This document shows positions 30,335-50,975 of a stretch of DNA of 64,000 bases, in pieces. The number at the start of each line of letters is the position of its first letter. Within the stretch, counting starts at the first letter, position 1. The stretch is from Nothopassalora personata (lineage: Eukaryota; Ascomycota; Dothideomycetes; Mycosphaerellales; Mycosphaerellaceae). The stretch covers positions 744,001-808,000 of the forward strand of contig CM066290.1 in assembly GCA_033816765.1 (NCBI GenBank). The letters run 5' to 3'. The notes below the pieces were generated by a model. The model was not told the DNA's origin, searched no databases, and worked only from the letters and a program-made list of their open reading frames with translations. A program made the position numbers and the translations under genes.

Positions 30335-30531
30335 TGTTAAGGGGATGTCGCAATGTATAGCACGCCCACGACCTGCCAGTCGTAGATGAACTAATTCTTG
30401 CCTTTTGTTCAAGACGCATCGCGCGTCGCAAGGTGTACTCATGCGTGTCACGTGCGGCTTGGCAGCCGGTCGCGACCGCATGTCACATGCAAGGCCACAT
30501 GTAGGGGTTAGCCACTGGGCTGCCCCTTACA
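30335..30531 (-). repeat. B' 3' LTR (197 bp)
   Basis: Identical to 36963-37159. On its inner side is the polypurine tract (minus-strand GGGAGGGGAGGCAA). Confidence 0.93.
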
Positions 30532-30704
30532 ATTGCCTCCCCTCCCGTGCGAGCTGTCCTCAGCTCGCTAGTTGCTACGTAGAGGCTCCTATGTACTTCC
30601 AGAACCATAGTTGCTATGCGGCCCACATGCGGGTTGCGTGCGTGTCGTCATGTAGGTGTAGGTGAGTGAGGCTTGGTTGCCATGCCGACGCAGCTGGTTA
30701 GGGG

Positions 30705-30832: not shown

Positions 30833-31603
30833 ATGTCGGCCGTGCCCTCCTCGCCGCCATTCTCTGGCCGCTCCGCCTCCTCCAGCAGCACCAGCAGCGA
30901 CAGCACCACCAGCGCCGCAGAAGACGAGCGCCGCCAGGCGGCTCTGGTGCGCGACGCACCCAGAACGCCTGGTGGTCGCAAGCGACCAGCATCACCCTCG
31001 CAGCCACCAACGCCCTCGCCAGCCACCAAGCTCTCGCAGAGAATCAACATGTGCATGCGGTGCCTCCCGTACTTCGTCAGGGGTAAGTCTCCACGCGCGT
31101 CGCCTGCGATTCGCATGCTAACCACTTGCTAGACGAGGCCGATGACTGTGATAGTGTCACCACCGGCGAGCTCCTGAAGAAGTGTGGCCGCTGCAGGCGC
31201 AGCAAACACAGCTGCGTGCCCAACACCAGCCACGCCATCGCCTCGCTGGTGAGCCGCCTGCGCGCCGCGCGGTCCCAGCGCGACTTCCTCACGGCCATGA
31301 TGGGCCAGGCGCCCACAGAACTCCAGCAGCAGGAGCTGGTGGAGCAGATCCGCCTGTGTGCCCAGCTGGGCAACGACATCAAGGAGGTAAGTCGCTGCTT
31401 CGCTCGTGCGAGTCGACTGCTACTCGCGGGGGAGGGCTCTAGTGCGTCCCCTGTGCTTCGGCTGACCCTTCCTATAGGCCATCAGGCAGTTCAATGCCTA
31501 CAAGCACAAGCGTGCCGGGGAGACCCGCATGCGTGCCTCCGCCGCCGCCGCCACCACTGCCGACCAGGCATTCTTGCCTGAGTCACTGCGTGACGACAAC
31601 TGA
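30833..31603 (+). CDS. Antisense Cys-cluster/coiled-coil protein inside chromovirus B'
   Basis: Three exons, 30833-31082, 31133-31386 and 31478-31603, with introns of 50 and 91 bp (both GTAAGT...TAG), give about 209 aa. The gene is read against gag-pol and lies between the chromodomain end (31738) and the 3' LTR. Residues 1-70 are Ser/Pro-rich. Then come six cysteines: CMRC, a single Cys about 12 residues on, then KKCGRCRRSKHSC. This CX2C...C...CX2CX6C layout resembles a Zn2Cys6 cluster with longer loops. A helical, Leu/Gln-rich, probably coiled-coil region follows (ELQQQELVEQIRLCAQL). The same gene exists, mutated, in copy B (44141-45078), and a similar one in the different element A. It may be a DNA- or nucleic-acid-binding regulator of the element, but that is inference. 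No known family was recognised. Confidence 0.75.
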
Positions 31604-31737: not shown

Positions 31738-34700
31738 TCATTTGCTTCTCCTTGACGCCTCATAGCCGGCTACCATGCGATCCGCATTCGCGAGGCCCTC
31801 CGCCGGTTCCCAGCTGTTGTACTCCTCTGGCCAGTCCTTCCACTGGACTAGATACTGCAGCTTGCCCTTGCGCTTACGCCTATCCAGCACTGCCTCTACC
31901 TCATACTCTCCGTCCTCATTAGCTAGAGGGGGTACGGGTCCATCCTCATCGCTACCGATATACGGCTCGAGGAGAGAGACATGGAAGACGTTGTGGAGCC
32001 TTGAGTCGGCTGGTAGCGCTAGGCGGTACGCCTGCGAACCGACAGCGTCCGTAATGCGGTATGGGCCGATGAACTTCGGACCCATCTTCTTCTTTGGCAC
32101 TGCCAACTTGAGGTTCTTCGTTGACAACAGGACTAAGTCACCTACGCGGTAGGTCTTGGCTTGGTGGGTCTTGTTGTAGTAGCGAGCCTGGCTTTCTGCT
32201 GCAGCCTTCCATCGCTCCTCGAGTGTAGCGCGTAGTTTTCGCATGCGACTCGCAGCTGTTACCGCTGCTGGTACTTCCCCCCCCCTGGGTCTCGTCTCGA
32301 GATCCAGTTGGTGCAGGGGCAATCTCAGGTCGCCAACCGTGCGCTATTTCGAACGGACTCATCCGCAGTGTTGGGTGGATGCTGTTATTAGCTGCGAATT
32401 CAGCAACTGCAAGCCACTCAGCCCACTCAGTTTGATTGTCACTGCAGTAACAACGAAGGTATTGTTCGAGGGTTTGGTTTGCCCTCTCAGTTTGGCCGTC
32501 AGTCTGAGGGTGAAAGGCCGTGGATAGCTTGCGCTTCACACGCGCCTCGAAGCAGAAGTCACTCCAAAACTGACTAGTGAAGACCGGACCTCGGTCGCTC
32601 ACTATGCCTGACGGGACACCATAGTGTCGCACGACTTCGTCTCGCAGGAGCCTCGCAAGCTCCACGGCTGTGCAAGTCTTCGTCGTCGGGATGTACAAGC
32701 TCATTTTTGAGTAGCGATCGACTATCACTAGGATCGCATCATACACGCAACCGGCTCGCGTGCTTGGAGGTAGGTCCGTAATGAAATCCATGGTGATTTC
32801 CTGCCACGGTCGCTCCGGTCTAGGAAGCGGTTGCAGCTCGCCGTAGGGTCGATGGCGCCTCGCCTTCGAACCCTGGCAGGTTCTGCAGGCTTGGACGTAT
32901 TGTTTCACGTCCGTGCTAAGTGAGTCCCACCAATAATTACGTCGCAACAGCTCTTCAGTCTTGGTCCTTCCAAAGTGACCCGCGAGGACGTCGTCGTGGT
33001 GCATGCGAATCAGATGCGACCTGATTGCGTGATCCCTGGGTACCACGATCGCGTCTCCGCAGTACACAAGGTCATCCTTCACATGCCATCCCTTGGCGTC
33101 CCTCGCGCTTGGCGCCTGCGCCAAGCATGCGACACACTGGTCGTCTTGCTGCTGCGCGATCTTCATCAAGAGTGGGATCAACTCACCCGTCGAGCTGTAA
33201 GCTTGACCCTGTATCACTGCAGCGCACACTGCTGCTGGTAAAGACGGCTTGTCTTGATGGGGAAGGTCACCTCTCCGCATTGCCATCGCCGCGCCTATGT
33301 CGCCCTGCATCGCCTCGCAGGTGGCAAGCACGCGCTTCACCGTCGGCTCGCTTGTCCCTTCCAGAGACTCCTTCCAGAAAGACAGCTTACTTTGCAAGGT
33401 AGGCAGCAAGTTCGAAGTTTGTTGCGTTATGGCTGCGTAGTCACTGCGTCTCGAAGGCGCGTCGGCTGGGTTAGTCTTACCCGGCCGATGCTCCACTACA
33501 AAATCAAAAGACTGCAGGAACGTAGCCCATCGAGCTTGCCGCCCATTCAGCTGCTTTACTGTCATGAAGCCCTGTAGGTTAGCGTGGTCGACTAGCACTC
33601 GCACCGCATGCGTAGCGCCCTCCAAGTATGGCCTCCAATGCTTGAAAGCCTCAACCACTGCAAGTAGCTCCTGATCGTGCGTCTCGTAGTTGCACTCAGC
33701 TGGTATCATCTTGCGTGAATAGAACGCGATGGGATGCCACTCAGCACCAAACAATTGGGATATGATACCTGCGATCGCGAAACCTGAGGCATCCGTCTCG
33801 ACTCGCGTGCGCAGCGCAGGATCGAAGTGCCTAAGTATTGGTGCACCTAAGAATCCGGCCTTAAGCTGTCGAAACGCCTGCTCTTCGCTTAAGGTCCACG
33901 TGAGAGGGCCGTGCTTCTTGCCGTCCTTGGATCCCTTTAGCAGGTCCGTTAGGGGCTTGCAGACCCTTGAGTATCCTTCTATAAAACGCCGGTAGAAGTT
34001 GCAAAACCCAAGGAAGGACTGGACCTCATGAAAGGTCGTAGGTGTAGGCCATTCCTCGATAGCGGCTACCCTGCTCCTGTCCATCGACACGCCTGCGGCG
34101 CTCACGACAAACCCAAGGAACTCTGCACTCTCCTGGAAGAAGTGACACTTCTTAGGGTTTGCGAACAGGGCAAACTTTCGTAGCCTCTCCAGCACCGCGC
34201 GTACGGCTCGCACGTGTGCCTCACGCGTCTCGCTGTAGATGAGGATATCATCTAGGTAGACCACGCAAATGTCATCAACTAAGCCGGTCAGCGCCTTGTT
34301 GATATACCCTTGAAAGGTTGCCGGTGCGTTGGTTAACCCGAACGGCATCACCAGGTACTCGTAGTGTCCGTATCGCGTGCGAAACGCAGTCTTCCACTCA
34401 TCGCCTCGCTTAATAGGGATACGATGGTAGGCGTCCTTCAAATCGATTGTAGTGAAGAACCTGGAACCTGATAGCCTATCTAGCGTCTCGCTGATTAGGG
34501 GCAGGGGGTATCGGTTCTTCACTGTAATCTCATTCAGGCCTCTGTAATCAACACAGAGCCTAAGAGTGCCATTCTTCTTTGGCACGAACAGGATAGGCGC
34601 ACCCGCCTCGCTTGCGGACCGCCTAATCCACCCCTTCTCCATTGCTTGCGCAAGGTACTCCTTCAAGGCCTCCAACTCAGTCAAGGACTGGTGGTACAGC

Positions 34701-35794
34701 GGCTTGAAAGGGGGTTTCTTTCCTTCAACGAGATCAATCGCATGCTCAACCCCGTCGGGCATCTTGCGCTTCGCCTGCTCATTAGGTGCGTATACATCTC
34801 GGAAGTCTGCAAATTCTTCAGGCCACGAGGGGCCCTCTCCTTCAGGTACTGCTGCAGCAATAGCCCGAACACTCATCGCATAAACCTGCTTTGAGCTCTC
34901 GAGATCCTCAAGGAACTCGCGTGCGTCACGCTGCTGAACCGCAGGCGTCTCTGCACCGTAGTACCACTGGTCATCCTTATCGGCCTTCACTATCCGATTA
35001 CGATGCCGCCAGGGTCTACCCAAAATCACTGATGGCCTACCCATAGGCACCGCGTAGCAGATGGCGTCACTCACGCGCTCTACTCCCGCGTCATCAGCGA
35101 GTCGCAGCCGAACCGCAAAGGCGCCGTAGCAATACCCTGGGTCATGCGCATACGACTCTAACTTCGGCAGCCTTGCCCCATCAATGGGTTGCATTTGATG
35201 TCGGAGTACATACTCATACGACACTAGGCTGAGATCCGCACAGTCATCCAGGAGAAACGTGGCCTCGCGAAAGCCCTCACGAGTCTCGACTGCGCCTCGC
35301 AAGTGACGCGCTGGACACGCATCCACTCGCCTCAAGGGGTCGACTTCAGGAAAACTCGGACTCAGGAGCGACCCACTTATGGTCCTCTGCCTTTTCCCTG
35401 GTCGCTGCGATGGACACACATCCACTCGCCTCAAGGGGTCGACTTCAGGAAAACTCGGACTCAGGAGCGACCCACTTCTGGTCCTCTGCCTTTTCCCTGG
35501 TCGCTGCGATGGACACACATCCACTCGCCTCAAGGGGTCGACTTCAGGAAAACTCGGACTCAGGAGCGACCCACTTCTGGTCCTCTGCCTTTTCCCTGGT
35601 CGCTGCGATGGACACACATCCACTCGCCTCAAGGGGTCGACTTCAGGAAAACTCGGACTCAGGAGCGACCCACTTCTGGTCCTCTGCCTTTTCCCTGGTC
35701 GCTGCGATGGACACACATCCACTCGCCTCAAGGGGTCGACTTCAGGAAAACTCGGACTCAGGAGCGACCCACTTCTGGTCCTCTGCCTTTTCCC
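31738..35794 (-). CDS. pol: B' pol: protease, RT, RNase H, integrase, chromodomain (one frameshift)
   Basis: About 1330 codons from the -1 site at 35794 to 31738. In order: a 33-residue repeat array, and a retropepsin-like segment with unusual FLLDDCADLSLVS. Then come reverse transcriptase with VVYLDDILIY and RNase H with ETDASGFAIAG and the YETHDQELLAVV block. Integrase has an HHCC zinc site (MHHDDVLAGHFG ... CRTCQGSK) and DDE residues in MDFITDLP, SDRGPVF and QTDGQTERANQ. The chromodomain is at the end (YEVEAVLDRR, LQYLVQWKDWP, EYNSWEPAEGL). The frame breaks in a run of nine C on the plus strand (32277-32285). Copy B has eight, and eight restores the frame into 31738-32322. A chromodomain at the integrase end defines chromoviruses, which target heterochromatin. 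Confidence 0.9.
32277..32285 (-). other. Homopolymer C9, site of the pol frameshift
   Basis: Nine C here against eight G in the matching position of copy B near 43460. The ninth base shifts pol out of frame before the chromodomain. It could be a real mutation or a read error. Confidence 0.75.
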
Positions 35795-35806
35795 TGGTCG
35801 CTGCCC
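35312..35806 (-). repeat. 99 bp minisatellite at the gag-pol junction, 5 copies
   Basis: Units begin at 35312, 35411, 35510, 35609 and 35708. 99 bases is 33 codons, so the array is translated in frame in pol (unit core RRVDVCPSQRPGKRQR). The unit at 35312 differs at a few bases. The first unit met by ribosomes also carries the gag stop. Copy B has only two units (about 40245-40440). Confidence 0.95.
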
Positions 35807-36925
35807 TTCTCAGTCAGAGCCTTCGCAGCGTCTACCCTGCGAACCGCTTGCGCGCCACGGTCCTTCCACAGGTGCCTGTTCGGGCAATCCGTCTTAATGT
35901 GACCCTTCTTATGGCATCCATAGCACTCCGCTTTGGTCCTATCAAAGGTCACAGACGATCCGCCGGCGTCCCGCTGGTAACTCGCACCCGGGTCGCGCGA
36001 CGCCTGACTATGCTTCTGCTGCTTCGAGCCACGATCGCTTCGCCCTTGGTCGCCCTCAGTCTCTCGCCTGCGGCGACCATGCTGCCCGCGGTCGTGCCCT
36101 CCGCTGCCACGCTCCGTGCTTTCAATGCGCGAAGCCAGGATCACCAGTTCCTCTCTGGTTGTTGGGATGTCATGAAACTTGACGATTGCGGACCGCAGGC
36201 CAGGCGCAAGCTTAGCGAGCATATGTCGCACGCGTTGCGCCTCCGTATAGTCCCCCAACTGATCCTCCATGACATCCAGCTTCAGTCGCAAACTGACGCA
36301 CTGTCTGGTTGTCCTTCTGTTTCACCGCCTCATACTCCAACATCACGTTGAGCACGCGGTTCACAGGATCACCGCATGCGTCTCGACAGAACTCCTCAAA
36401 GTCCTGGTATGTATACCCTTTAAGGTCAAGGACGCTATGGTTGGCGTGCCATCGCTCACTTGCCTCTCCGCTTAGGTACATAACCCCATACAGGACCTTT
36501 GACTCGTTCGTCACATACGTGCCGCCTGAGAGGGCAAAGACAAGAGAGAGCTCCCTTAGGAATACCCGTGCTTTCTTGATCGAGTCCCCTCTAAAAGGCG
36601 TAGGTTCTTTGAGACGCAAACGTGTCGCATGCGATGCGACCGCGCCTCGAGCTGCGATATCATCGTCAGTTACTACAGATGGAGGAGGGGGAGGGGGAGT
36701 AGGGGATAGTTCTCCGCCGGATTCGCCCTGAGGGTCCGCCGGCGGCACGCTTGCGTCCCGCAAGATCTCCAACTGTTCAATCTCCCTCTGTATCTCCTTC
36801 TCCTCAACCTCTGCCCGAAGGGCATCCCTCCTTGCGACTAAGGCTGCACGCCTCGCTTGTTGCTGGGCCCTAGGGCTCAGGGGAGCCGCAAGCGTAGCGC
36901 TGCTGTCGTCGCGTTCGGACTCCAT
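35758..36925 (-). CDS. gag: B' gag with zinc knuckle (one frameshift)
   Basis: Starts at ATG 36925 (MESERDDSSATLAAPLSP); an N-terminal coiled coil is followed by the capsid-like retrotransposon gag region (FLRELSLVFAL, VLNVMLEYEAVKQKDNQTVR). It ends with a CCHC knuckle CYGCHKKGHIKTDC. An extra base at about 36283 breaks the frame after VRQFAT. The second half continues in another frame from about 36282 to the stop at 35758. Copy B lacks the extra base and is continuous here, so the original gag was about 390 aa. Gag forms the virus-like particle. Confidence 0.85.
35788..35794 (-). promoter_or_regulatory. -1 ribosomal frameshift heptamer GGGAAAA
   Basis: In the gag frame the bases read G GGA AAA, the X XXY YYZ form of a slippery site, and the gag stop (35758-35760) follows 28 bases later. 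Slipping back one base enters exactly the open pol frame. The heptamer is retained in the RIP-mutated copy B. A downstream pseudoknot could not be checked. Confidence 0.6.
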
Positions 36926-36962: not shown

Positions 36963-37159
36963 TGTTAAGGGGATGTCGCAATGTATAGCACGCCCACGAC
37001 CTGCCAGTCGTAGATGAACTAATTCTTGCCTTTTGTTCAAGACGCATCGCGCGTCGCAAGGTGTACTCATGCGTGTCACGTGCGGCTTGGCAGCCGGTCG
37101 CGACCGCATGTCACATGCAAGGCCACATGTAGGGGTTAGCCACTGGGCTGCCCCTTACA
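36963..37159 (-). repeat. B' 5' LTR (197 bp)
   Basis: Identical partner of 30335-30531. The leader after it starts GTTCTAATTC on the minus strand. I could not match a tRNA primer site. Confidence 0.93.
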
Positions 37160-37164
37160 ACCGG

Positions 37165-37360: not shown

Positions 37361-37769
37361 TGTTACGGTTCTGATCTAGGGCTGAAGGAAGCTAACTAAT
37401 TAGACCTCTACAATTGGTGGGCGCTTCCGCCCGAGAAGTGCTCTCTTACCCGTAGGAATAAAACTAAGGAACCGAGAGAGCAACTGAAGTAATCTCCTTA
37501 ATCTCGTTAATCTCGGTAATCTCGAGAGAGCATAGAGAGCATAGAGAGTACGGAGAGCAAACGCTCTATCTCCTTTGTATTTAGGAACGCTAGAAACCCT
37601 TATGGTTCTAATGCGTTTAACTTATGTTACTATCTCACTAATTGGAATATAACTCTTATTCCTATTATTCATCTTCGCTTAGCTTGCTTTAGCCTCTCTG
37701 AAGAATAATACCGCTACGTGACTTGACTTATCTCTCTTTTAAGACTAGCCCTAGAACGAGATAATAACA
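37361..37769 (+). repeat. Chromovirus A 5' LTR (409 bp)
   Basis: Begins TGTTACGG and ends AATAACA. Bases 37573-37769 match 50779-50975 at equal length with about eight differences. All are C/T or G/A in CpA/TpG context. The first 200 bases do not match the other LTR. Confidence 0.7.
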
Positions 37770-44140: not shown

Positions 44141-45078
44141 TCAGTTATCGTTACGTAGTAACTTAGGTAAGAATGCCTAGTCGGCGGCGGTAGTGTCGAT
44201 GTTCTACGCCTATAGGAACTAGGACTACGGTTAGTAGGGTATACGTAGGCGAGGAATATGCGACTTACGGCGCGGCCGAGTTCGAATAGCCTATTAAGGG
44301 CGCGGTTCTACTCCTACTAGAGCGCGAGGGCTTCGGCGGCGGGGGCGGCGGTAGTAGTAGCGGCGGCGGCGGAGGCACGTATACGGGTCTCCCCGGCACG
44401 CTTATGCTTATAGGCATTAAACTGCCTAATAGCCTATAGGAAGGGTTAGCCGAAGCATAGGGGACGCACTAGAGCCCTCCCCCGCGAGTAGTAGTCGACT
44501 CGCACGAGCGAAGTAGCGACTTACCTCCTTAATGTCGTTACCTAGCTAGGCACATAGGCGGATCTACTCTACTAGCTCCTACTACTAGAGGTCTATAGGC
44601 GCCTAGCCTATTATAGCCGTAAGGAAGTCGCGCTAGGACCGCGCGGCGCGTAGGCGGCTTACTAGCGAGGCGATAGCGTAGCTAGTGTTAGGTACGTAGC
44701 TATGTTTACTACGCCTATAGCGGCTACACTTCTTTAGGAGCTCGCCGGTAGTAACACTATTACAGTTATTGGCCTCGTCTAGTAAGTAGTTAGCATACGA
44801 ATCGTAGGCGACACGCGTAGAGACTTACCCCTAACGAAGTACGGGAGGCACCGTATATACATGTTAATTCTCTACGAGAGCTTAGTAGCTAGCGAGGGCG
44901 TTAGTAGCTACGAGGGTAATACTAGTCGCTTACGACTACTAGGCGTTCTAGGGGCGTCGCGTACTAGAGCCGCCTAGCGGCGCTCGTCTTCTACGGCGCT
45001 AGTAGTACTATCGCTACTAGTACTACTAGAGGAGGCGGAGCGGCTAGAGAATAGCGGCGAGGAGGGCATAGTAGACAT
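44141..45078 (-). pseudogene. Antisense Cys-cluster gene of element B (RIP-degraded)
   Basis: ATG at 45078 and a TGA at 44141-44143 correspond to the start and stop of the B' antisense gene. The N-terminus (MSTMPSSPLFSSRSAS) differs from B' mostly by RIP-type changes. Exon-intron layout appears collinear. Confidence 0.75.
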
Positions 45079-49739: not shown

Positions 49740-49813
49740 TAGCTAGAGTAGGAATCGAACCTACGACCTTAAGAGTGTAGACAGCTTGCGCTCTACCACT
49801 AAGCTACATAACT
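49740..49813 (-). other. tRNA-like sequence inside chromovirus A
   Basis: The minus strand shows a B box GGTTCGATTCC in a perfect 5 bp TPsiC stem (GTAGG/CCTAC). It has an A-box-like TAGCTTAGTGG, and 5' and 3' ends that pair in six of seven acceptor positions, with two G-T wobbles, followed by an A discriminator. The anticodon arm does not fold cleanly (25 bases instead of about 23). Isotype is uncertain; several deviations are of RIP type. It may be a decayed tRNA gene or the head of a SINE. Confidence 0.55.
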
Positions 49814-49829: not shown

Positions 49830-50460
49830 AGGAGAACTTACATAAACATATCTCCTATAAGAAACCAACACCTATCTACTAGAGGGGCCAGCGCTCGAAG
49901 AAGCTGCTACGGCTTCCTTAAGGGCCGGATATAACTAGAGGGCATTATCCGGAATCATCGAAAGGTCCTCCTAGGAAGGAATCGACATCTAGAAAACCCC
50001 CTCTAGCTCTTCGGGGCTACCTTTAGGAACGAGAAGATAGGACGAAGGCGCGGAAAGGGCATCGACACCTACGCTCGGTAAACTACGAAGATCCTCGAAA
50101 TCCTTCGCTATCGCCTTTTCCTCCTTATCCTTAGTAACGCGCAGCTATTTCCTAAGACGATGTACCTTTAACATCGCCTCTATTACCTTCTCTTTAGCCT
50201 TATTAAGCTCTCGCTTTAGCTTTCGACGCTAGTTGCGAAGCCGCTCCCACTTAGTCTACGTAATAGTTACGTTACACTTAACACCCTTACGAACGTACTC
50301 CGAACAACACCTAAAGCGTATATCTACTACATAACGAGGACTCTTCTTTCCTTTAGGCACTCTAGCCTTTCGGTAACTAGAACATAGAGATAGTATCTCG
50401 CGGCCCTCGGCTTCGATGCCTAGTGCTTAACGTTCGCGGCGCTCCTAACGTGTTAGCTAC
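49830..50460 (-). pseudogene. Antisense Cys-cluster/coiled-coil gene of chromovirus A (RIP-degraded)
   Basis: Reading against pol, between pol and the 3' LTR, one frame gives CSSYRKARVPKGKKS, then RFRCCSEYVRKGVKC. A long charged helix (KWERLRN, LNKAKEKVIEAML, VHRLRKQLRVTKDKEEKA) and an acidic Ser-rich tail follow. The two tyrosines stand where Cys would complete CX2C...CX2CX6C, and TAC from TGC is a RIP change. The layout equals that of the B' antisense gene although the sequences differ. Stops are TAG/TAA only. No functional product is expected now. Confidence 0.6.
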
Positions 50461-50540: not shown

Positions 50541-50975
50541 TGTTACGGTTCGGATAAAGGACGGTATAGAACGTAGCATAGGGAGGAAGAATTAGAAGAC
50601 ACGAACTAATCGCTAGGAAGAGAAAGGGACCCTACGCCCGGGTCACGTGTACGACCGCGCGCTTAGTGCATAGTCAAACACGACCGTAGAAGTAGCGTAT
50701 AGACGTACACGACTACACGACTAGGCGACCGGTCGAGTGGATAGACGGACGCCTAACACCGGATGATATACGAGCCTTCTTTGTATTTAGGAACGCTAGA
50801 AACCCTTATAGTTCTAATGCGTTCAACTTATGTTACTATCTTACTAATTGGAATACAACTCTTATTTCTATTATTCATCTTCGCTTAGCTTGCTTCAGCC
50901 TCTCTAAAGAATAATACCGCTACGTGACTTAACTTATCTCTCTTTTAAGACTAGCCCTAGAACGAGATAATAACA
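50541..50975 (+). repeat. Chromovirus A 3' LTR (435 bp)
   Basis: Begins TGTTACGG behind a purine tract (GGAAGGGGGATA) and ends AATAACA. Its upstream half (U3) is unrelated to the 5' LTR, while the R-U5 part is shared. Confidence 0.7.

Follow-up and report, generated by a model that had tools for sequence, protein, structure and literature searches.

Antisense Cys-cluster genes and neighbouring U3 repeat arrays as a candidate exchangeable module of fungal chromoviruses

Why should an LTR retrotransposon, which passes through RNA, carry an intron-bearing gene on the strand opposite to pol, and what might such a gene do for the element? The question is raised by an element, B′, in a 64,000-nt stretch of Nothopassalora personata DNA (the window; assembly GCA_033816765.1, contig CM066290.1, positions 744,001 to 808,000). 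Its parts, in window coordinates, are as follows:

30335–30532, minus strand: 3′ LTR of B′
30833–31082, plus strand: exon 1 of the antisense gene, with a Ser/Pro-rich N-terminus and the first CX2C
31083–31132, plus strand: intron 1, GTAAGT...GCTAAC...TAG
31133–31386, plus strand: exon 2, with the third Cys, CX2CX6C and a helical segment
31387–31477, plus strand: intron 2, GTAAGT...GCTGAC...TAG
31478–31603, plus strand: exon 3 with the stop codon, 36 amino acids shorter in frame than copy C13 (L037), assuming a third intron there
31738–35809, minus strand: pol region, with RT, RNase H, integrase and chromodomain ORFs
36963–37160, minus strand: 5′ LTR of B′, identical to the 3′ LTR over 198 nt

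The three exons join into one frame of 209 amino acids with six cysteines, and both introns have a GTAAGT start, a CTAAC or CTGAC box and a TAG end. On the minus strand, Pfam identifies RT, RNase H and integrase in the ORF at 32138–35809, and an SH3_Tf2-1 domain and a chromodomain in the ORF at 31738–32343. Because the element lies on the minus strand and the gene on the plus strand, the gene is antisense and sits between pol and the 3′ LTR. The first-pass annotation had described an antisense, intron-bearing Cys gene at this place, and frame, introns and LTRs all confirm it as real. With a Ty3-type RT, integrase and chromodomain between LTRs, B′ is a fungal chromovirus, as are the elements of types T1–T7 described below; the assignment is based on Pfam and LTRs for B′ and on chromodomain, pol similarity and LTRs for the T types. 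The six-Cys pattern is found in none of 231 stop-to-stop ORFs of at least 80 amino acids in the window and in none of 20,000 shuffles of the B′ protein, both of which are mild controls. A bacterial promoter scan upstream of the gene gave no match. A 99-nt (33-codon) tandem repeat occupies 35209–35903, near the start of the RT-bearing ORF. The ORF lengths of B′-type copies step by 33 amino acids (1257, 1290, 1323 and 1356), so the repeat number probably varies between them.

A search of the genome (54.5 Mb, 40 contigs) returned 25 near-identical copies of the B′ gene among 40 scored matches: 23 are full-length at 99–100%, the window copy included, and two have a longer 3′ part. The 23 copies matching over all 771 nt keep both introns, and antisense orientation would fit as the reason for their survival. 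Two of the 25 young copies are damaged, one by a frame shift (C6:4422756) and one by a single stop in exon 1 (C6:2870693). In older copies TAG stops abound, presumably what RIP would leave. The longer, un-mutated copy C13 would encode 245 amino acids on the assumption of a third, 59-nt intron, and B′ has lost this extra stretch with no change of frame. The window holds one further copy:

44141–45078 (first-pass coordinates), minus strand: B copy of the antisense gene, with RIP-type mutations

Its similarity to the B′ gene spans 44349–45068; apart from a longer 3′ part in B, the two differ mostly by C-to-T or G-to-A changes, in keeping with the earlier claim that they represent the same antisense locus.

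A gene of similar layout had also been reported in a second element of the window, A. To place it, we scored 150 chromodomain matches out of 1,231 candidates in the genome and took 20 loci, chosen to cover the ORF-length classes. Sixteen of them carry an antisense ORF with CX2C..C..CX2C..C between the chromodomain and the 3′ LTR. These are aORF-3R genes: antisense, located between pol and the 3′ LTR and kept in most copies. The remaining four loci comprise a B′-type copy with a deletion inside the gene (L036), a B′-type pol whose similarity to B′ stops just past the chromodomain (L021), a locus that reads like a host chromatin remodeller (L035) and a member of a family with a 1557-aa chromodomain ORF, in which an LTR-like start follows about 400 nt past the chromodomain with no such ORF before it (L033). 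That family makes up 10 of the 150 listed matches and, judging from this one locus, seems to be without an antisense gene.

The 16 ORFs fall into seven types, T1–T7, with family A as T3. Next to the A gene, the window shows two U3s of unlike type:

37361–37568, plus strand: U3 of the A 5′ LTR, type T4 (93%)
49850–50460, minus strand: antisense gene of A (type T3), with stops and three Cys changed to Tyr by RIP-type mutation
50541–50775, plus strand: U3 of the A 3′ LTR, type T3 (91%)

Of the 65 differences between the A gene and an intact relative, 57 are C-to-T or G-to-A, and the frame contains stops. The RIP-type damage to an antisense Cys gene had thus been recognised correctly, but three of the six cluster cysteines read Tyr rather than the two that had been counted. 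The flanks of A differ (GCGCG and CTAAG), and A, if taken as one element across the nested B, would be a chimera with unlike U3s at its ends. A and B′ had been called unrelated chromoviruses, a description at odds with their approximately 47% amino acid identity over RT and RNase H.

All seven types encode six cysteines in Zn(II)2Cys6-like spacing, followed in six of seven by a heptad-periodic segment. The only invariant columns across the seven are M1, the six Cys, L79, R106 and L107. The proteins of T2, T3, T4 and T7 are 30–38% alike; T1 is the most distant (20–26% amino acid identity to the other types), and its membership, based on alignment and Cys spacing, is the least sure case of homology. 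With a profile of the seven types, 8,000 database candidates were scored, of which 69 are relatives at E ≤ 0.01. Five relatives (P0002, P0009, P0012, P0013 and P0023) lie on contigs of 6.7–7.4 kb, about the length of one element. The relatives with a named organism come from Sporormia, Acidomyces, Rostrohypoxylon and Lithohypha, which we take to be ascomycetes, and the Lithohypha protein is labelled Zn(2)-C6 by UniRef. Across the resulting 76 aligned members, 68 show the six-Cys pattern and each of the six Cys is kept at ≥90%. The spacing rule of Zn(II)2Cys6 clusters is CX2CX6CX5-12CX2CX6-8C; 59 of the 76 follow it strictly, among them T1, T2, T4, T5 and T6, while T3, T7 and B′ break it. GAL4-type proteins carry a coiled-coil dimerisation segment after the zinc cluster. 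In the corresponding segment, 56 of 68 testable members have a 3.5-residue (heptad) period at p ≤ 0.05, a period in sequence only; T7 lacks it (p 0.75), as does B′. A search for A-type relatives in viral contigs gave eight pattern stretches, none of which was confirmed.

Among Pfam families, Zn_clus (PF00172) has the largest number of matching members, but the matches are weak (24 of 76 at E ≤ 1, with 0.0071 the best value); T1 scores 11.4 against a cut-off of 21, and the other six types are not listed at E ≤ 1. DUF5651 (20 members, best 5.6e-5) and CENP-H (13 members, best 2.2e-4) both reach better E-values than Zn_clus, and 192 Pfam families match some of the 76 members at E ≤ 1. Against PDB, the seven-member profile found LEU3 (E 0.17) and LAC9 (E 0.52), ranked below unrelated coiled coils, and both are absent from the matches of the 76-member profile. 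Selection at the protein level is suggested by pN<pS in 21 of 21 type pairs, with dS saturated.

Does B′ belong to the same family? Its protein aligns to the A-type profile with an hhalign probability of 3%, without the strict spacing and without the heptad period, which speaks against the single domain family previously suggested for A and B′. Searches with the B′ protein gave no relatives beyond its own family: there were none at E ≤ 1 in two protein searches, Pfam offered only weak matches below cut-off, and NCBIfam and PDB yielded none. Position, strand and the number of Cys are what A and B′ have in common; homology between the two genes is not detectable. The idea of a recurrent accessory gene, likely regulatory, is nonetheless strengthened by seven homologous types plus B′ at the same place and on the same strand, although its corollary of one shared domain family is not supported.

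The DNA that varies between the T types forms one block. It runs from the chromodomain end through the gene and the polypurine tract into 177–235 nt of U3 (221 nt in T6). The LTR begins TGTTACGG, preceded by AGGGGGATGG or similar, and in all seven types the first Met of the gene lies inside the LTR edge, 64–94 nt from it. Between T2 (L019), T3 (L024), T4 (L026 and L028) and T7 (L034), the last 1.5 kb of pol is 96–97% identical and the final 200 nt of the LTR (R-U5) 97–100%. In contrast, DNA identity falls to 57–62% in the antisense genes and 57–68% in the U3s. With 50 shuffles per pair, the best shuffle is exceeded by a few points in four of the six gene pairs and in two of the six U3 pairs; the remaining pairs do not exceed it. 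Between these cassettes, blastn found short patches only, chiefly a tRNA-like stretch and 20–100 nt at the polypurine tract. Since the proteins are still 30–38% alike, the cassettes are anciently related, and the backbone that they have in common is young.

The U3s themselves are rich in short repeats. At k=6, the repeat count exceeds the dinucleotide shuffle mean in seven of seven types (p ≤ 0.010, T1 weakest), and in each type it is higher than the maximum of 33–41 pol windows of the same length. The repeated words are:

T1: GCGCGAC
T2: ACTGATCA
T3: ACGACC
T4: GAGATCA and GAGAGCA
T5: GCGACG
T6: CAGATCA
T7: CTGATCA and AGTCTGA

These motifs are not wholly private: CTGATCA occurs seven times in T2 and five times in T7, and GCGAC three times in T1 and eight times in T5. 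When the types are grouped by a GATC or a CGAC core, the groups agree only weakly with the similarity of the proteins (rank 2 of 35). In one element (L031), the first 79 nt of the 3′ LTR U3 are tandemly duplicated; its sister L032 is without the duplication. The B′ LTR has no significant array (repeat count 17 versus a shuffle mean of 11.1, p 0.092). The 292 nt between this LTR and the start codon are repetitive, with a count of 67 versus maxima of 62 in shuffles and 46 in pol windows, the B′ shuffles being plain rather than dinucleotide ones. Its commonest words are ATGATG, CAGCTC and CACGCA, and we do not count this stretch as an operator array.

Gene and U3 appear to travel together. In all 13 elements typed, the U3 at the 3′ end is of the same type as the gene, and six of these elements are independent of the U3 references. 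Among the best 40 matches to each of the T2, T3, T4 and T7 cassettes, the gene is joined with all or most of the U3, in lists that favour whole cassettes and could miss split ones; near-identical young copies among these best 40 number 5, 25, 24 and 16, respectively. At the 5′ end, eight of the 13 elements carry the matching U3 together with a 5-nt target duplication, identified by eye in the flanks; in two more (L027 and L032) the U3 also matches, with the target duplication not read, and one has no 5′ data (L025). The remaining two, L028 and L019, have a 5′ U3 that differs from the 3′ U3, and the target duplication is absent: L028 combines a T7-variant 5′ U3 (90% over the whole U3) with a T4 3′ U3, and L019 a T4 5′ U3 with a T2 3′ U3.

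Sliding identity, with positions given relative to the chromodomain end, shows mosaic element bodies. Between about −4300 and −2500, L019 is 99.7–100% identical to L026 (type T4); between about −2200 and +1200, it is 99.2–100% identical to L020 (type T2). L028 (from −4000 to −2800) and L029 (to −2500) are 99.7–100% like T7 (L034); from −1300 to −400 both are 99.7–100% like T4 (L026), and they are 98.9–100% like it in the cassette, with a poor match to T7 and T4 alike near −400 to +180. In L029, the U3s of the 5′ and the 3′ LTR are both of type T4, and a target duplication is present. Its mosaic body, like U3s and target duplication make it look like a swap completed by transposition. Genome-wide positions are consistent with these types: four T2 U3 pairs occur at element spacing, and a T4 U3 lies at the far end of L019. 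At the same spacing, four T7 U3 pairs have ends that differ in how well they match the T7 U3. The chimeras without a target duplication could be assembly joins; L029 and the four types on one backbone are independent of them and would stand even then. L018 (T1) and L029 (T4) are inserted in the same sequence, AATAAAGCCTAAGAAT, perhaps a shared target inside another repeat.

Taken together, we consider it probable that the products of the T1–T7 antisense genes are small zinc-cluster proteins which bind DNA as dimers and recognise the adjacent U3 array, regulator and operator being exchanged as a module. The distance of the first Met from the LTR edge suggests an antisense promoter in or beside the U3. 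The U3 would then be a two-way promoter with the operator array in its middle, and binding of the protein to the short repeats of the neighbouring U3 would autoregulate the antisense gene and activate or repress gag-pol. Reverse transcription copies the 3′ U3 to both LTRs, so a regulator that sits next to this U3, on its pol side, would stay linked to its promoter. The model thereby supplies a reason for the position of the gene. One crossover in gag-pol, followed by one round of transposition, would carry regulator and operator onto a new backbone; crossover and LTR copying would thus give retroelements a route to change their regulation with the replication proteins unchanged. An extension to B′ is weakly suggested: the model fits its position, but the gene is a separate one.

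Some of the data also suit a protein of another kind. The antisense product may be an accessory replication factor, such as an RNA chaperone or a factor for nuclear import or integration targeting, beside which the U3 hitchhikes as an adjacent, fast-changing promoter. A Cys cluster and basic residues would serve RNA binding as well, U3 modularity is known in Tnt1 (PMC1838419), the correlation between motifs and proteins is weak, and several types have motifs in common. However, the U3 has an ordered repeat array in seven of seven types, and a general factor of this kind would have no need of joint exchange with the U3 on pol backbones that are 96–97% alike; we regard it as unlikely. We find it harder still to see the antisense RNA, rather than the protein, as what matters. 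Pairing of such RNA with element RNA to tune silencing has been proposed for antisense transcription (PMC7264820), and the frame is interrupted in three of the four T4 copies read (L026, L027 and L029). Nevertheless, pN<pS in every type pair, the six Cys kept at ≥90% across the 76 proteins and the open spliced frame of B′ all point to a translated product, making an RNA-only role improbable. The T4 interruptions also count against a strict need for the protein in the regulator model, as L026 and L029 jumped, judging from their target duplications, despite the broken frame; supply in trans by other copies would explain this.

It is very improbable that the cassettes are host genes picked up as passengers that do nothing for the element. 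The introns of B′ are of the ordinary fungal kind expected of a host gene, yet passengers would hardly account for seven types at one place and on one strand, for a protein under constraint or for the young copies of T2, T3, T4 and T7. Returning to the regulator and its operator array, an analogy with phages raises the further possibility, which we put forward tentatively, that every family possesses a transcription factor of its own, encoded antisense, and a U3 operator array likewise its own, the two forming one swappable module that keeps regulation separate on the same replication machinery. If so, there should be little cross-activation or cross-repression between families, as between phage immunity groups; the motifs common to several types lower the odds. 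With seven gene types beside arrays in one genome, four of them on nearly the same backbone, matched and mismatched protein–U3 pairs can be tested.

Parts of this arrangement have counterparts elsewhere. Zhao et al. (2011, Virology) reportedly described Boty-like retrotransposons of Botrytis cinerea with an antisense gene, brtn. Lambdoid phages exchange their immunity regions, regulator and operators, as a block on a common backbone; unlike there, where phage DNA recombines, LTR copying would do half the work in the T modules. In the retrovirus HTLV-1, HBZ is an antisense, spliced, nuclear dimerising bZIP factor that acts on its own LTR. Tnt1, Retrolyc1 and Retrosol are copia elements. The proposed T-type regulator would work like HBZ, to which we claim no homology and whose antisense promoter lies in the 3′ LTR (PMC7264820). 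Boty resembles the T types in being fungal, in carrying an additional antisense gene that follows pol and precedes the 3′ LTR (PMC7264820) and in having a chromodomain in gag-pol (PMC4227169); brtn is also mentioned in PMC8365987, PMC4227169 and PMC5987419. The likeness is by description only, and the available text of these sources describes no exchange of a regulator with its U3. Plant antisense ORFs between pol and the 3′ LTR (Grande gene23, RIRE2 and Retand TRP28) are likewise suspected nuclear or DNA-binding regulators (PMC7264820, PMC11963269), and in Retand elements the antisense TRP28 genes are nearly always present, with a suspected DNA-binding role (PMC11963269). They differ from the T types in their domains (TRP28 and SMC), and swapping with the U3 is not described in the excerpts of these papers. 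Tnt1, Retrolyc1 and Retrosol share one backbone with divergent U3s, termed modular evolution, and the accessible part of that report mentions no U3-linked regulator gene (PMC1838419). Reviews describe what antisense genes in this position do as unknown (PMC7264820, PMC11963269). Antisense accessory genes and divergent U3s are thus known separately; we found no account of an antisense regulator coupled to its U3 in the open-licence literature searched, as far as its text was available.

A tRNA-like element (Rfam tRNA, 43–52 bits) accompanies the cassettes of T3, T4 and T7, where it closely follows the antisense gene in the same orientation:

49740–49813, minus strand: tRNA-like cloverleaf between the A chromodomain and antisense gene
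L024:4619–4692, L026:4398–4471 and L034:4629–4702: tRNA-like cloverleaf in other elements

Its acceptor stem shows two double compensatory changes among the four sequences, a number that 42 of 500 shuffles reach. The anticodon arm has four standard pairs and an 11-nt loop, in which ARAGORN reads a CUA anticodon. We rejected a role as amber suppressor in view of this arm and because gag and pol are in different, overlapping frames. A role as primer was also dismissed, as the site after the 5′ LTR, CTTTGAACGCC, by our reading pairs with GCGTTCAA in the element's own R-U5, which we take to be the arrangement of self-priming Tf1-like elements. Instead, the tRNA-like element might serve to cleave or terminate antisense transcripts before they extend into pol.
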